From Oscillospiraceae bacterium (GTDB lineage: Bacteria > Bacillota > Clostridia > Oscillospirales > Oscillospiraceae), in assembly GCA_017458825.1 (NCBI GenBank), contig JAFSZX010000022.1:1-35087 (forward strand): DNA of 35,087 nt. The letters are read 5' to 3'. A model generated the notes under the pieces. It was not told the origin of the DNA. It did no database searches and saw nothing but the letters and a program-made list of their open reading frames with translations. Position 1 is the stretch's first letter. Every line of letters starts with the position of its first letter. Made by a program: the position numbers and the translations under genes. Shown here piece after piece: positions 4,286-24,093 of this stretch.

Positions 4286-4306
4286 TCGGTAATTGATTTC
4301 TATTGA

Positions 4307-4338
4307 CCGACCGCGGCAAATGCCGCGGTCGGCTTTTT
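4307..4338 (+). terminator. Intrinsic terminator of ftsZ
   Basis: The 12-bp perfect stem CCGACCGCGGCA (4307-4318) pairs with 4321-4332, has a 2-nt loop, and is followed by CTTTTTT. Confidence 0.92.
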
Positions 4339-4434
4339 TATCCGCGTTTTCCTATATTTGACCCTCATAATCCGCTGTCAACAGCGCATAGTAATTTTGT
4401 CGCCGGCGACGAAAAACGATCAAGGGGTGATCCA

Positions 4435-5463
4435 ATGCATGAAACGCAAAGGCCATCCGTTTGGCGGCGCGGCGCGGCAATGTTCACAGCGCTCCTGCTG
4501 GCGATCTCTCTATGCACTCGCTACGCATGGGCGCAGGACGGTGAGCGGACTTTGATCCCCATGGGTTGTGCCGTGGGCATCAAGCTGTTTGCCGACGGTG
4601 TTTTGGTGGTGGATACCACCGGATTGGACGGCGCGAAAACTTCTCCTGCAACAGATTGCGGCTTGAAGGAAGGGGACCTGATCCTTCGGATCGACGATGA
4701 GCCGATCCGTTCAACGGAGCAAATGCAGTCTATTTTGCAGCAGAGCGCCGGCGAGATGCTGACGCTTACCGTGTGTCGCGGCGAAAAGACCATGCAGCTT
4801 GACACCCGCGGCATCCTGTGCGCGGACGGCGTATACCGTCTGGGTATTTGGATCCGTGACAGCATGGCGGGGATCGGCACCATGACCTATTACGATCCCG
4901 ACACCGGTCAATACGGCGCGCTGGGGCACGGCATCACGGACGTGGACACCCACGTTCTCATGCCGCTTTCCTCCGGCGCCATTATGGAAACCACGGTGAA
5001 AGCCGTGAAGAAGGGACAGCGTGGCGATCCGGGCGAGCTGAAGGGTGATTTTACCGTACAGCATGACGTGGGCACCGTCAGCGCCAACACCAGCGCCGGT
5101 ATTTTCGGCACGGCGGATGAGGATATCTTTTCCGATTCCGGCGAGCCGGTTCCGGTAGCGGCGGCGTCGGAGGTGCACACCGGCAGCGCTACGATCCTAT
5201 GTACCGTTTCCGGCAACGGAACGGAGAGCTACGAGGTGGAGATCGTGCGGCTGTACCACGACAAGGCGGATATGCGCGATCTTCTTCTGCGCGTTACGGA
5301 TCAGCGTTTGCTGGAGACCACCGGCGGCATCGTGCAGGGCATGAGCGGCAGCCCCATTTTGCAGGACGGAAAATTTGTGGGCGCTGTGACCCATGTGCTG
5401 GTGAACGATCCCACGCAGGGCTATGGCATTTTCATGGAGAATATGTTGAAAATGGCCGGCTGA
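4435..5463 (+). CDS. spoIVB: SpoIVB serine peptidase (S55), sporulation sigma-K checkpoint
   Basis: SpoIVB is made in the forespore, crosses into the intermembrane space and cleaves SpoIVFA, which triggers pro-sigma-K processing in the mother cell. The protein has 342 aa. Residues 14-33 are a hydrophobic signal or anchor segment. A PDZ domain spans roughly 55-125 (GLKEGDLILRIDDEPI). The S55 peptidase domain follows, with the likely triad H165 (GALGHG), D289 (VTDQRLL) and S304 (GMSGSP), all present. The ATG at 4435 follows AAGGGGTGA; upstream codons in the same frame show no SpoIVB similarity. It is followed by spo0A, the order conserved in spore formers, but separated by a terminator. It is shorter than the B. 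subtilis protein, mainly at the N terminus. Confidence 0.93.
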   Translation: MHETQRPSVWRRGAAMFTALLLAISLCTRYAWAQDGERTLIPMGCAVGIKLFADGVLVVDTTGLDGAKTSPATDCGLKEGDLILRIDDEPIRSTEQMQSILQQSAGEMLTLTVCRGEKTMQLDTRGILCADGVYRLGIWIRDSMAGIGTMTYYDPDTGQYGALGHGITDVDTHVLMPLSSGAIMETTVKAVKKGQRGDPGELKGDFTVQHDVGTVSANTSAGIFGTADEDIFSDSGEPVPVAAASEVHTGSATILCTVSGNGTESYEVEIVRLYHDKADMRDLLLRVTDQRLLETTGGIVQGMSGSPILQDGKFVGAVTHVLVNDPTQGYGIFMENMLKMAG

Positions 5464-5505: not shown

Positions 5506-5507
5506 GA

Positions 5508-5547
5508 TTGTCGAATAACGTCGAACGATTTTGTTTGAAATTCGACG
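5508..5547. promoter_or_regulatory. Cluster of Spo0A-box-like sites upstream of spo0A
   Basis: The Spo0A binding consensus is TGTCGAA. An exact match lies at 5509-5515. A 6-of-7 match (CGTCGAA) starts 10 bp later at 5519-5525, one helical turn away. A third, inverted 6-of-7 match (TTCGACG) lies at 5541-5547. The cluster is 120-160 bp before the spo0A start, so autoregulation is likely. No convincing -35/-10 pair was found in 5548-5660, where AT-rich stretches around 5560-5590 are the best candidates for a promoter. Confidence 0.6.
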
Positions 5548-5666
5548 AAATCCGAGGGAAAAAACTGTAATATCCTGCTACATTATAGACAGCTCAAGCG
5601 ACGGATGCGGATTTGTCGTGAAAATACAGGAAGTTACGATTCCGGAAGTGGAGAGAGGACATGCCT

Positions 5667-6425
5667 ATGGAAGTAAAAAGCAAGGTAGTGATCGCCGACA
5701 GCAGTGAGGAGTTCCGCACACTGCTGTGCCATCTGGCGGAAGAGAGCGGAGAATTTGAGATTTCCGGCGCCGTGCCGGACGGGGCGGAGGCGTGGGAGCT
5801 GGTACGCCGCCATCATCCGGCGCTTCTTGTCACGGAGCTGGTACTGCCCACGCTGGACGGTTTCGGCCTGCTGCGCCAGTGCGCCTCACTGGGTGAGGCG
5901 GCGCCCCAGACGCTGATCGTGTCCGCCTTCTGCACGGAGCGCGCCGCGGCGGAGGCGGCGGAGCTGGGCGCCTGCGCGTTTCTGGCAAAGCCGGTGAGCG
6001 GCCCGTCGCTGTTGGAGTATATGCGTCGGGCACTGCGCCGGGAAGAGCCCGCGCCTACGGCGGAAAACGATCTGGAGGCCCGGGTCACCGCCATCATCCA
6101 TGAGATCGGTGTGCCGGCGCACATCAAAGGGTACCAGTATCTGCGTGAGGCGATCCTCATCTCGGTATCGGATATGGACGTGATCAATGCCGTCACCAAG
6201 GTACTCTATCCGGAAGTGGCGCACCGATTCGGCACCACCGCTTCCCGGGTGGAACGCGCCATCCGCCACGCCATCGAGGTAGCGTGGGATCGGGGCGATC
6301 TGGATATTTTGCAAAAGTACTTCGGCTACACCGTCAACTCCGCCAAGGGCAAGCCCACCAACAGCGAGTTCATTGCCATGATTGCCGACCGCTTGAGCTT
6401 ACAGCGCAAGCAAAAACGGGCGTAA
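5667..6425 (+). CDS. spo0A: Spo0A sporulation master regulator with degenerate receiver site
   Basis: Response regulator that commits cells to sporulation, 252 aa. The N-terminal receiver (1-125) joins by a short linker to the Spo0A DNA-binding domain (about 140-250). That domain is strongly conserved: [35 protein letters not shown] and [10 protein letters not shown] are near-identical to classical Spo0A. The receiver is atypical. The phosphoacceptor Asp (D56 in B. subtilis) is replaced by Glu57, codon GAG at 5835-5837, in the context [12 protein letters not shown]. The second acidic metal ligand is Ser12 (IADSSEE instead of the usual ADD). The conserved Ser/Thr (VSAF) and Lys (AKPV) remain. 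The ATG at 5667 is preferred over 5661 because GAGAGG then stands 8 bp away. It follows spoIVB and carries its own terminator. It may act without phosphorylation or in a fixed, active-like state. Confidence 0.95.
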
Positions 6426-6508: not shown

Positions 6509-6973
6509 TTACGCCGGATAGACGAGATCCGCCACCGTCCGGTTGCGGAGGATCTCGGCGTAGGCGGCGCAACAGCGGCGTGCCAGCGATACGTCGAGGT
6601 TTACATAATTTCCACATTCCTTGGCGCTTTGACCCGGCATGGCGCCGTCATACACGGCGGCGGCTTCAAAGCAGCGCTGCAGGAGGGCGATAGCGTCCGC
6701 CTCGGTGAGACGGCTGCTGTCAAAGAGAAAATAGAAGCCGGTCTGACAGCCCATGGGACCGAAGTACACCACCGCGTCCTTTTCCGGACTGTTGCGCAAC
6801 AGCGTGGCGATCAGGTGCTCCACCGAGTGCATTTCACTGTTGGAGAGAAGATCGCCGGTGTTGGGGGTTTTAAACCGCAGATCGAAGGTCACCACCGCGC
6901 CGTCCCGCCGGCTCAGGTATAGACCGGGCGTAAGCACGGTATGGTCTACCGTAAAGCTGTCAATGCGTTCCAC
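6509..6973 (-). CDS. luxS: S-ribosylhomocysteine lyase LuxS
   Basis: LuxS splits S-ribosylhomocysteine into homocysteine and DPD, the precursor of autoinducer-2, in the activated methyl cycle. It has 154 aa, the usual length. The iron/zinc site is intact: HSVEH (H49, E52, H53) and the distal Cys in KECGNY (C120). The catalytic Cys is in GPMGCQTG (C76). The start is taken as GTG at 6971-6973 because GGAGG stands 6 bp upstream and the product then begins MERIDSFTVDH, like other LuxS proteins. An upstream ATG at 6992-6994 would give an unusual extension. It overlaps the end of mtnN by 14 bp, so the two enzymes that act in sequence (SAH to SRH, SRH to homocysteine) are translationally coupled. 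Confidence 0.96.
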   Translation of the reverse strand: MERIDSFTVDHTVLTPGLYLSRRDGAVVTFDLRFKTPNTGDLLSNSEMHSVEHLIATLLRNSPEKDAVVYFGPMGCQTGFYFLFDSSRLTEADAIALLQRCFEAAAVYDGAMPGQSAKECGNYVNLDVSLARRCCAAYAEILRNRTVADLVYPA

Positions 6974-7649
6974 ACGGCACCTCCAATTTATCAATGAACG
7001 ACAGCACCACCTCGTTCAGCCGCGCCAGAGCGGCGGGGAACTGGAAGGTAAAATCGTTCTCACCGAACAGACAGTCGGAAACGGACTTGATCGCCATAAA
7101 GGGCACCTCGTTGCGATAGCACACTTGAGCGGCGGCACAGCCCTCCATCTCGCACAGCAGGGGATGAAACACCTCCGCGATATGCCGGGCGCGGGGCGTA
7201 TCCGTGGCGAACCAGTCGCCGGTCGCCACAATGCCGGTGCGATAGGGAAGACCCACCGCGTCCATAGCGGCGCGGGCGCGATCCTGCCACGACGTGGGGA
7301 AGACGACGCGATGCACCGTCGCTACGAATCCCTCCTGGCAATCGTCCAGTGTACTGATGTCGAAATCGTGCTGTATAAAGCCCTCCGCCAGCACCAGCGT
7401 ACCGATGGAAACGTTTTCAAAACAGCCTGCCACACCTGCGTTGATGATCAGCTCCGGATGGAATCGGTCGATCAGCAACTGGGTCGCCATGGCGGCGTTT
7501 ACCTTACCCACGCCGCCGCAACAGGCGATCACGCCGGGGCGGATGCGATAGAATTCCACGCCTGCCTCCTGCAACAGCAGGGGCGTTTTTTCGCCGTTGA
7601 GCATAGCGGCGATCTCCTCGCGCATGGCGAACAGTAACGCGATCTCCAT
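6960..7649 (-). CDS. mtnN: 5'-methylthioadenosine/S-adenosylhomocysteine nucleosidase
   Basis: Cleaves adenine from SAH and from methylthioadenosine, relieving product inhibition of methyltransferases and feeding LuxS. It has 229 aa, typical for MTAN/Pfs. Visible are the N-terminal IALLFAMREEI with the active-site Glu, the INAGVAG phosphorylase-fold loop, EMEGCAAAQV with Glu169 (ribose binding), and SVSD with catalytic Asp192. The ATG at 7647-7649 is chosen because GGGAGG lies just upstream; the frame runs further upstream to about 7727 without family similarity. It is the first gene of an mtnN-luxS operon on the minus strand, divergent from the OB-fold gene. No clear promoter was found in 7650-7815. 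Confidence 0.95.
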   Translation of the reverse strand: MEIALLFAMREEIAAMLNGEKTPLLLQEAGVEFYRIRPGVIACCGGVGKVNAAMATQLLIDRFHPELIINAGVAGCFENVSIGTLVLAEGFIQHDFDISTLDDCQEGFVATVHRVVFPTSWQDRARAAMDAVGLPYRTGIVATGDWFATDTPRARHIAEVFHPLLCEMEGCAAAQVCYRNEVPFMAIKSVSDCLFGENDFTFQFPAALARLNEVVLSFIDKLEVPCGTH

Positions 7650-7815
7650 AGTAGCCTCCCGATGGTTTTCTTTCAGCGCGAAGCGGCAACGCCGGATCCG
7701 CTGTCTCCCATTATGCCATAAAACCACCGGTTTGAAAAGAGGTATATTTCACGGTCCCGTCACATATAGTGTGGCATCACCAATGCGGACATATCACAAC
7801 GAACGGGGTGGACGT

Positions 7816-19267: not shown

Positions 19268-19461
19268 TGTCAAAAAAGCCTCGCAGAGTTCGCGGCGCGC
19301 ACGCCGCGAAGATATTCAATCGTCATTTGCCGCGGCGTGTACGTGGCAAATGACACCGCTCAGCCTACGAAGTGTGCGAATGGTGCGCCGCTGGCGCACC
19401 ATTCGTGCGCGCAGTAGGCTGCAACCCTTTTGTCAAAAAACGGCTTTGCCGTTTTTTGACA
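19268..19461 (-). repeat. 194-bp palindromic interspersed repeat, copy B
   Basis: Reverse-complement copy of the element at 936-1129, of identical length, with 6 substitutions. All four hairpins are kept. In the stem 19289-19297 with 19302-19310, a C-G pair of copy A is a G-C pair here, a compensatory change. The outer stem around the 13-bp hairpin is a perfect 8 bp in this copy. Read in the element's own orientation (minus strand), it starts 5 bp after a terminator T-run with the same junction CTTTTGAGAC as copy A. It lies between convergent genes (glycerate kinase and RluA), as copy A does (galK and ZIP). Confidence 0.87.
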
Positions 19462-19466
19462 GTCTC

Positions 19467-19506
19467 AAAAGAATGGGATACCGCAGAGTATCCCATTCTT
19501 TTTATG
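19467..19506. terminator. Terminator after rluA-type gene, right copy of the 40-bp duplication
   Basis: Exact repeat of 19226-19265. On the minus strand it begins at the stop codon of the pseudouridine synthase gene (19502-19504) and would terminate that transcript. Confidence 0.9.
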
Positions 19507-22013: not shown

Positions 22014-22709
22014 ATGAAGATTCTGGTGGTAGACGACGAGAAACTGTTGGTCAAAGGGATCCGGTTCAATCTGGAAAACGAGGGCTATCAGGTGGAGACC
22101 GCCTATGACGGCGCCGCCGCTGTGGAGCTGGCGCGGACGGGCGCCTTCGATCTGATCGTGCTGGATCTGATGATGCCGGTACTATCCGGCAGTGAAGCGT
22201 GTATGCAGATCCGTGCCTTTTCCGAGGTGCCTATCATTATGCTCACCGCCCGCAGTGAGGACGCGGACAAGCTGATGGGCTTTGCCTGCGGCGCGGACGA
22301 TTATGTGACCAAACCGTTCAACATTCTGGAGTTGAAAGCGCGGATCCGCGCCCTGTTGCGCCGCGCCGGCGCCGCACAGCAGCACAGCGGCGCCATACTG
22401 ACCGTAGGCGATGTAAGTCTTGACACCCGGGAGCGTGTGGCGATTCGGGACGGAAAGCGTATCGATCTGACCGCCAAGGAGTATGACCTGATAGAACTGC
22501 TGATGAAGAACCCGCGGCGCGTGTTCAGCCGCGAGACGCTGATGGATCAGGTGTGGGGTTATTCCTATGCCGGAGACTACCGCACGGTGGACGTGCATAT
22601 CCGCCGCCTGCGTGAGAAGCTGGAGCCGGATCCTGCCGAGCCGGTATATATCATCACCAAATGGGGAGTTGGTTATTATTTTCAAGGGGAGAATCGGTCT
22701 GCCATTTAA
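22014..22709 (+). CDS. OmpR/PhoB-family response regulator
   Basis: DNA-binding response regulator of 231 aa. The receiver keeps all key residues: acidic pair in VVDDE (D7-D8), phosphoacceptor D51 in VLDLMMP, T78 in MLTAR and K100 in VTKPF. The C-terminal winged helix (about 130-228) has the OmpR signature TAKEYDLIELLMKNPRRVFSR... and VDVHIRRLREKLEPD with IITKWGVGYYF. AAGGAGGAGG lies directly upstream of the ATG. The partner kinase gene overlaps its 3' end. The pair resembles PhoPR/VicRK-type systems; the signal cannot be told from sequence. Confidence 0.96.
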   Translation: MKILVVDDEKLLVKGIRFNLENEGYQVETAYDGAAAVELARTGAFDLIVLDLMMPVLSGSEACMQIRAFSEVPIIMLTARSEDADKLMGFACGADDYVTKPFNILELKARIRALLRRAGAAQQHSGAILTVGDVSLDTRERVAIRDGKRIDLTAKEYDLIELLMKNPRRVFSRETLMDQVWGYSYAGDYRTVDVHIRRLREKLEPDPAEPVYIITKWGVGYYFQGENRSAI

Positions 22710-24093
22710 GTTCGGCGTCAGCTACATTGCCCTGCTTGCGGCGGTGCTGGTGCTGATGAACTCCTATCCGCTCCTTGTTTCCCAAAATCTGGTGTTTCGT
22801 TCCAAGGAGAGCAGTATGTCCGCCAGCGTCAAACTGATCAGCGCGTCGCTGTCGGGTCTGGCGGAGCTGACGGAGGACAACGTGGCGCAGGCGCTGATCG
22901 ACCTGCGCCAAACCGGCGTGAGCCGCGTTCTGATCACCGATCCCGCCGGACAGATCCTCTACGACACGCGGGACAGTGACGGCGCCGGAGGCGAGTACGC
23001 CCTGGACACGGAGATCACGCAGGCGCTGGAGGGGAACGACGCGTTTTTTTGTCGCTATGACGCCGAGGCGTTCCACAGCCGTTTTGCGTCCCCTGTGGTA
23101 TATAGAAGCCGTATCATCGGCGCCGTCTATGCCTACGATTACGATACGGAGCAGGCACGGTTACTGCAAAGCCTGCAGAACAACCTGCTGGTCATCTCCG
23201 GCATTGTGGCGGCGCTGGCACTGGTGTTGAGTATCCTGCTCAGCCGCGTGCTGACGTGGCGGATCAGCGGCTTGCTCCAATCCATCCGTAAGGTGCGCCA
23301 AGGCTCCTATAACCACCGCGCCCGGGTAAGCGGTCACGACGAGATCTCCCAGATCGCCGCGGAATTCAACAGCCTGACCGACCGTTTGCAGACCACCGAG
23401 GCGGCGCGCCGCCGCTTTGTTTCTGACGCCAGCCACGAGCTGAAAACACCGCTGGCGGGCATCCGGTTGCTGGCGGACTCCATTTTGCAGACCGACGGCA
23501 TGGAGGCGGATACGGTGCGGGAATTCGTCAGTGACATCGGGCAGGAGGCGGAGCGATTGAGCCGTATCACCGAGGACCTGCTTCACCTGACGCGTCTGGA
23601 TAACGGCGCGATGGCAAGCCCCGGCCGCGTGGAGGTATCGCCGGTGCTGGCGCGGGTAGAACACATGCTGGGCGCCGTGGCGCGGGAAAAAGGCGTGGCG
23701 CTTTCCTGCCATGTTGACGGCACCGCCGCCGTCTACGCCACGGAGGATGAACTGCACCAGATCCTGTACAACATGATGGAAAACGGGGTAAAATACTCCC
23801 ATTCCGGCGGCTTTGTCCATACAGCTGTTCGCGTGGACGGCGACGACGTGGTCATCGACGTGGAGGATGACGGGATCGGGATCCCCGATGAGGATATGCC
23901 CCATATTTTTGACCGGTTTTACCGGGTGGATAAAATGCGCTCCCGACAGATCGGCGGTACCGGACTGGGTTTATCGATCGTCCATGATACCGTCAAGCGC
24001 AGAGGCGGCACGGTGGAGGCGCGTCACCGCGTCGGCGGGCAGGGTACCGTGTTTACGGTGCGTCTGCCGCTGTGTCAGGCGGAACAGCCATAA
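22669..24093 (+). CDS. Sensor histidine kinase, PhoR-like
   Basis: Membrane-bound kinase paired with the preceding regulator, about 474 aa. A first transmembrane segment (GVSYIALLAAVLVLMNSY) is followed by an extracytoplasmic sensor region of about 125 residues. A second segment (VISGIVAALALVLSILLS), a HAMP linker, the HisKA phosphorylation box SDASHELKTPLAG, and the ATPase domain come next. The ATPase domain has N box ILYNMMENGVKYS, G1 DVEDDGIGIPDED, F box IFDRFYRVD and G2 GGTGLGLSIV. The start is uncertain: TTG at 22669 overlaps the regulator gene by 41 bp; CTG at 22699, with AAGGGGAG before it, is an alternative. No ATG fits before the first membrane segment. It ends 57 bp before polA. Confidence 0.92.
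   Translation: MVIIFKGRIGLPFKFGVSYIALLAAVLVLMNSYPLLVSQNLVFRSKESSMSASVKLISASLSGLAELTEDNVAQALIDLRQTGVSRVLITDPAGQILYDTRDSDGAGGEYALDTEITQALEGNDAFFCRYDAEAFHSRFASPVVYRSRIIGAVYAYDYDTEQARLLQSLQNNLLVISGIVAALALVLSILLSRVLTWRISGLLQSIRKVRQGSYNHRARVSGHDEISQIAAEFNSLTDRLQTTEAARRRFVSDASHELKTPLAGIRLLADSILQTDGMEADTVREFVSDIGQEAERLSRITEDLLHLTRLDNGAMASPGRVEVSPVLARVEHMLGAVAREKGVALSCHVDGTAAVYATEDELHQILYNMMENGVKYSHSGGFVHTAVRVDGDDVVIDVEDDGIGIPDEDMPHIFDRFYRVDKMRSRQIGGTGLGLSIVHDTVKRRGGTVEARHRVGGQGTVFTVRLPLCQAEQP

Follow-up and report, generated by a model that had tools for sequence, protein, structure and literature searches.

The window, a stretch of 35,087 nucleotides from an Oscillospiraceae genome, was confirmed to encode one genuine Spo0A with glutamate in place of the phosphoacceptor aspartate. 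Phosphate on one Asp of Spo0A is normally needed to switch on spore formation. By descent, the protein is an ordinary Spo0A whose receiver became aspartate-less. We think it fairly probable that it is a working Spo0A which is no longer switched by Asp phosphorylation, and which pairing between the Glu and the pocket Lys would bias towards the active state.

The spo0A gene and its receiver pocket

The spo0A reading frame (5661..6425, plus strand, 254 amino acids) encodes a PF00072 and a PF08769 domain and passes the Spo0A equivalog profile TIGR02875 with 257.9 bits (cut-off 200). Its likely start is the ATG at 5667, which stands 7 bases behind an AGGA at 5656-5659. On the same strand, the receiver domain extends over 5685..6020 (PF00072, residues 9-120, 51.5 bits) and the Spo0A_C DNA-binding domain over 6084..6395 (PF08769, 154.3 bits). 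Comparison with solved structures gave 35/123 identical positions between the window receiver and the Spo0A receiver 1dz3, and 74/115 between the DNA-binding domain and 1lq1, the Spo0A C domain of B. subtilis. The recognition helix, at 6234..6287 (plus strand), is identical to 1lq1 at 18/18 positions. The original prediction had called the DNA-binding domain almost unchanged; with 18/18 positions in the helix but 74/115 in the domain, this wording is apt for the helix and not for the domain. Directly 5' of spo0A lies spoIVB (4303..5463, plus strand; TIGR02860, 363.9 bits, cut-off 305.25). The genome to which the window belongs (G000) comprises 918 kb, is 65.5% complete and has a single Spo0A_C match. 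Right beside spo0A, on the minus strand at 6509-7727, luxS adjoins a methylthioadenosine/S-adenosylhomocysteine nucleosidase-like gene. The window also contains a 204-nt inverted repeat pair (926-1129 and 19268-19471, 97% complementary, with about 18 kb between), which resembles a dispersed element and a 60-nt portion of which matches a contig of the sister species G298 (L142).

Alignment with Spo0A relatives and with 1dz3 places a Glu codon (GAG, 5835..5837, plus strand) at the phosphoacceptor position; this is residue 57 counted from the ATG at 5667, where 1dz3 has Asp, and the alignment of the window motif LLVTELVLP with motifs of the LLLLDIIMP type is unambiguous. In the numbering of B. 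subtilis Spo0A, D10, D11 and D56 correspond to D11, S12 and E57 of the window protein, respectively. The predicted Glu at the D56 equivalent is thus borne out by the alignment, and also by the same GAG in the sister species. At the acidic pair (5697..5702, plus strand) Asp is followed by Ser, i.e., the first ligand is retained and the second, direct metal ligand is lost, with S12 facing the second Asp of 1dz3. Also retained in the alignment, all on the plus strand, are Ser at the conserved Thr/Ser position (5922..5924), Phe at K-3, the aromatic residue of the Y-T coupling (5979..5981), and the pocket Lys (5988..5990), together with the landmarks T+1 Ala, D+4 Pro and D+8 Gly. Where a member of the Spo0A family is expected to have a phosphorylatable Asp, the window protein has Glu, and it corresponds to an aspartate-less receiver in that a domain recognized by PF00072 carries Glu instead of the phosphoacceptor Asp.

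The sister species G298, which shows 93-96% nucleotide identity to the window over the region, has GAG at the same codon. Between the two spo0A genes, 16 codons differ synonymously and 2 in other ways, one of the latter being an alternative first codon; the receiver holds 4 synonymous and 0 non-synonymous differences, and the DNA-binding domain 10 and 0. Among the nine Glu pairs compared, the dN/dS of the receiver ranged from 0 to 0.34, and the Glu-bearing receivers in these pairs are under purifying selection. The window comes from a single incomplete genome assembly, which could favor a sequencing or assembly error as the source of the Glu codon. This candidate was rejected, because G298 carries the same GAG despite the 16 synonymous differences in the gene, and Glu recurs across numerous assemblies, among them records with the strain titles An100, Pseudoflavonifractor sp. 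60 and CCNA10; we give an error practically no credence.

Glu and the second metal ligand among relatives

Spo0A rows were drawn from 32 genomes of the genus, an order sample, a family sample and 80 named loci. The starting set was 301 loci and the window, without two copies of the window (L001 and L032); filtering by length and coverage, which excluded fragments and rows split by stop codons (e.g., L004 and L061), gave 304 rows. Removal of 28 duplicates left 276 distinct Spo0A-like rows, and setting aside 11 paralog-like rows (2 with Glu and 9 with Asp) left 265 Spo0A rows. The phosphoacceptor site in the 276 rows is Asp in 218, Glu in 45, Asn in 9, Gly in 2, Ser in 1 and Trp in 1; without the paralog-like rows Glu is found in 43/265 and Asp in 209/265, in a set of rows mostly from relatives of the window. 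By sample, Glu occurs in 8/85 rows of the order, 5/28 of the genus, 15/72 of the named loci and 14/79 of the family (the window is the 43rd), where the sampling is weighted to the relatives of the window and the order sample, chosen by the C-domain alone, comes from the best part of a longer list. The 123 rows typed to the family of the window have Asp (100) or Glu (23) at the site and no other residue. The 43 Glu rows retain the pocket Lys and the first acidic ligand in 43/43, Ser/Thr in 42/43 and the K-3 aromatic residue in 37/43, and in 42/43 of them the recognition helix matches at 17 or 18 of 18 positions. Some rows from the order's other families have Asn, Gly, Ser or Trp at the site (L003, L012, L015, L016, L030 and others); the 13 rows with these residues retain the pocket Lys in 6 cases and have lost it as well in 7.

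A FastTree phylogeny was built from the 276 rows with the site column excluded; on it, the distribution of Glu versus not-Glu requires a minimum of 21 changes, compared with a mean of 42 and a least value of 37 for shuffled labels, so the Glu trait is clustered yet has been repeatedly gained or lost. The minimum is 18 after collapsing branches with support <90 and 10 after collapsing those <95, and these counts carry no direction (Asp to Glu or Glu to Asp). According to PMC4395418, Glu is the commonest replacement among aspartate-less receivers (26%). Against this background, Glu takes 21/31, 18/27 and 10/19 of the non-Asp changes (binomial P-value about 1e-6, 1e-5 and 0.01, respectively), figures which are only a rough guide since the 26% is a share of sequences and not of changes. 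Near the window on this tree, G000 and G298 alone carry Glu; Asp is found in G311, their next relative, and in six others. The original prediction proposed that the Glu would be a rewiring of sporulation entry in one lineage. This part is corrected: 43/265 rows carry Glu with repeated changes on the tree, and a residue that arose or was lost many times is not peculiar to one lineage. A scan of the receiver for changes accompanying Glu found none that was consistent, the best being present in 7/23 pairs. Within the open-access literature, subscription papers lying mostly outside the search, we recognized no description of Glu at the phosphoacceptor site of Spo0A and found nothing on Spo0A D56E; the accessible part of PMC6136694 has no mention of Oscillibacter or Ruminococc.

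The second ligand is acidic in 0/123 Spo0A-like rows typed to the window's family (paralogs included) and in 54/85 rows of the order sample. Outside the order, where the 29 rows with the best C-domain matches were taken from a class sample of 118 genomes, both the phosphoacceptor and the second ligand are Asp in 29/29. The predicted Ser at the D11 equivalent is therefore present as S12, but its reading as a change in the window lineage was rejected: with a non-acidic second ligand in all 123 family rows, S12 is a trait of the family. The second ligand hardly varies within the independent pairs compared for association with Glu. As stated in PMC12632262, the second residue of the acidic pair contacts the metal directly, and about 80% of pseudo-receivers have a non-acidic residue there.

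Phosphate input and sporulation genes

A search of 30 genomes for SPOB_a (Spo0B-type) gave no match in G000 or G298, in agreement with the absence of Spo0B that the original prediction had proposed to check; the matches in 9/30 genomes are in ORFs 220 to 620 residues long and are not necessarily Spo0B. The number of HisKA kinases is 3 in G000, 4 in G298, 3 in G311, 4 in G306, 2 in G130 and 6 in G316. A response regulator adjoins 3/3, 3/4, 3/3, 4/4 and 1/2 of them in the first five genomes, which leaves one unpaired kinase each in G298 and G130, and all 5 examined of the 6 in G316, where the counts refer to the HisKA family only and exclude the kinase-like ORFs at edges (L373:5162-6001 and L377:3-947). 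Since the Asp-bearing sister G311 also has only paired HisKA kinases, an absence of orphans cannot be tied to Glu. This pattern agrees with a weak link to orphan kinases in the genus and does not separate Glu from Asp. At 22014-24093 of the window, an OmpR-type response regulator gene overlaps a histidine kinase gene, which is the only HisKA kinase of G000 inside the window.

A second spo0A with an intact Asp, an objection already raised in the original prediction, was found in part. No second Spo0A-like gene was detected in G000, a 65% complete genome. In G298, a short contig encodes a diverged, Asp-bearing paralog of the Spo0A type (L142:2690-3454); its 72.7 bits are below the TIGR02875 cut-off of 200, and its recognition helix is far diverged (7/18 positions). 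On the tree this paralog groups with the Spo0A-like paralogs of seven close relatives (L144, L145, L146, L147, L148, L149 and L150), in which about 4 kb at most separates the Asp-bearing gene from spo0A; these too are diverged, with a changed recognition helix. Among the 30 genomes surveyed for Spo0A_C, 18 are Glu genomes at least 90% complete, of which 11 have one match and 7 have further Spo0A_C genes. In ten of the single-match genomes (G306, G549, G511, G650, G465, G553, G143, G166, G130 and G197), a whole-protein search found besides Spo0A only ordinary receivers (best 1e-9), and all ten have SpoIIGA and SpoIVA, with SASP in 8. In the eleventh, G310, a second receiver is cut by the contig end and itself has Glu. 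The further genes have Glu in G316 and G322 (paralogs L151 and L153), and those of G367, G359, G098, G151 and G284 are untyped. A second Asp-bearing Spo0A as a general rescue was rejected, given its absence from the ten Glu genomes and the Glu in the second copies of G310, G316 and G322.

Upstream of spo0A, a 0A-box-like site ATTGTCGAA (5507..5515, plus strand, with an exact box at 5509-5515) is a candidate for autoregulation, and a second, degenerate 0A-like site TTCGTCGAA is found at 5541..5549 on the minus strand; we took TGTCGAA as the 0A-box consensus. Exact boxes on either strand within 300 bp upstream of spo0A were present in 19/27 Glu rows (expected 1.1) and 78/119 Asp rows (expected 5.1), these being the only rows long enough, with expectations derived from resampled sequence. 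For spoIIGA, exact upstream boxes were no more frequent than chance predicts (Glu 1/24, Asp 1/16). Spore genes were searched in 60 genomes (29 Glu, 27 Asp and four untyped, G299, G297, G320 and G386), and most Glu relatives searched retain them: SpoIIGA was found in 26/29, SpoIVA in 27/29 and SASP in 22/29 Glu genomes, with the incomplete G000 counted as a miss in each, and in 23/27, 23/27 and 25/27 Asp genomes, respectively. All three have matches in G298, and none has a match in G000, which is 65% complete. PMC3558957 describes cultured Oscillibacter valericigenes as non-sporulating despite Spo0A and sporulation sigma factors, and several records in our set of relatives share its genus name.

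Readings of the Glu-bearing receiver

The window protein resembles Spo0A (TIGR02875) in domain order, equivalog score, recognition helix and the 0A box 5' of its own gene, and differs from it in the Glu at the phosphoacceptor site and the Ser at the second acidic metal ligand. As described in PMC4395418 and PMC12632262, aspartate-less or pseudo-receivers likewise have no Asp and have lost the second acidic ligand while keeping the first ligand and the Lys; the window protein, unlike them, is the master regulator of sporulation, and its site has changed repeatedly between Asp and Glu within one bacterial family. A natural Glu at the site is also known from ChxR of Chlamydia trachomatis, which binds DNA unphosphorylated, but this regulator is of the OmpR/PhoB type with another role, and its binding survives Asp or Ala at the site (PMC4395418 and PMC3960148).

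In the reading that we favor, that of a working Spo0A independent of Asp phosphorylation, an early family-wide loss of the second acidic ligand would have weakened or removed metal-dependent phosphorylation, and on this ligand-lacking background Asp would have changed to Glu in the window lineage and repeatedly elsewhere. Lys and Ser, both retained, are the probable partners of the longer Glu carboxylate, and this pairing would tilt the intact Ser/Phe coupling to a dimer-competent, DNA-binding state without phosphate. Sporulation entry would then be set by the amount of Spo0A via the upstream 0A-box feedback, or by another ligand or partner. Against activation by Glu, Asp-to-Glu alone is insufficient for constitutive activity in Spo0A according to PMC4395418. 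Asp is also the majority state, including in close sister species without the second ligand, which counts against a phosphate-free reading, as Asp must still matter there. The lack of a consistent second-site change with Glu, the Asp paralog in G298, the further Spo0A_C genes in 7/18 genomes and the chance level of boxes at spoIIGA count against the favored reading as well.

It is possible, although we consider it doubtful, that the whole family was freed from phosphate control. Loss of the metal ligand in the common ancestor would then have produced a charge-set receiver, in which Asp and Glu would be tuning states of lower and higher basal activity that were switched repeatedly, with sporulation set by the amount of Spo0A or by a non-phosphate signal. 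The observation that the second ligand is non-acidic in 123/123 family rows while the site is only Asp or Glu, with no consistent compensating change accompanying Glu, would also be expected if the two residues were of comparable worth, i.e., if the site had been no phosphoacceptor since the loss of the second ligand and only a negative charge near the Lys were needed for fold or output, the Asp forms being phosphate-independent too. Nevertheless, Asp was retained in 100/123 rows across long divergence, so Asp and Glu are not freely exchangeable, and we regard comparable worth as unlikely.

The main rival concerns the paralog: the Asp-bearing gene retained in G298, with its counterparts close to spo0A in the seven relatives, could still carry phosphate input in the window lineage. 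The Glu form would then be a phosphorylation-dead, weakly active basal DNA-binding regulator, and the Asp paralog would take the kinase signal, perhaps by pairing. The strong divergence of the paralog's recognition helix, the ten Glu genomes with a single Spo0A-like gene and the second copies typed as Glu in G316, G322 and G310 make this quite unlikely. We find it highly improbable that Spo0A is merely drifting as sporulation is lost in partly small genomes. Such decay would agree with the absence of SASP from 7/29 Glu genomes (G000 included) compared with 2/27 Asp genomes, and with the three spore genes unmatched in the incomplete G000. It is opposed by the zero non-synonymous receiver changes between the two window species, the pocket Lys in every Glu row, SpoIVA in nearly all Glu genomes (27/29) and the family rows, none of which has Asn, Gly or Ala at this position.

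Natural Asp and Glu relatives, for example the tree neighbors G456 and G549, are at hand for testing the favored reading, and records titled as strains with Glu include Flavonifractor sp. An100, Pseudoflavonifractor sp. 60 and CCNA10. Textbooks describe phosphorylation of Spo0A as the gate to endospore formation. A family that retains spore genes and yet repeatedly exchanges the phosphoacceptor would mean that this gate can be run in another way, and finding spo0A in a genome is no proof of kinase-controlled sporulation.
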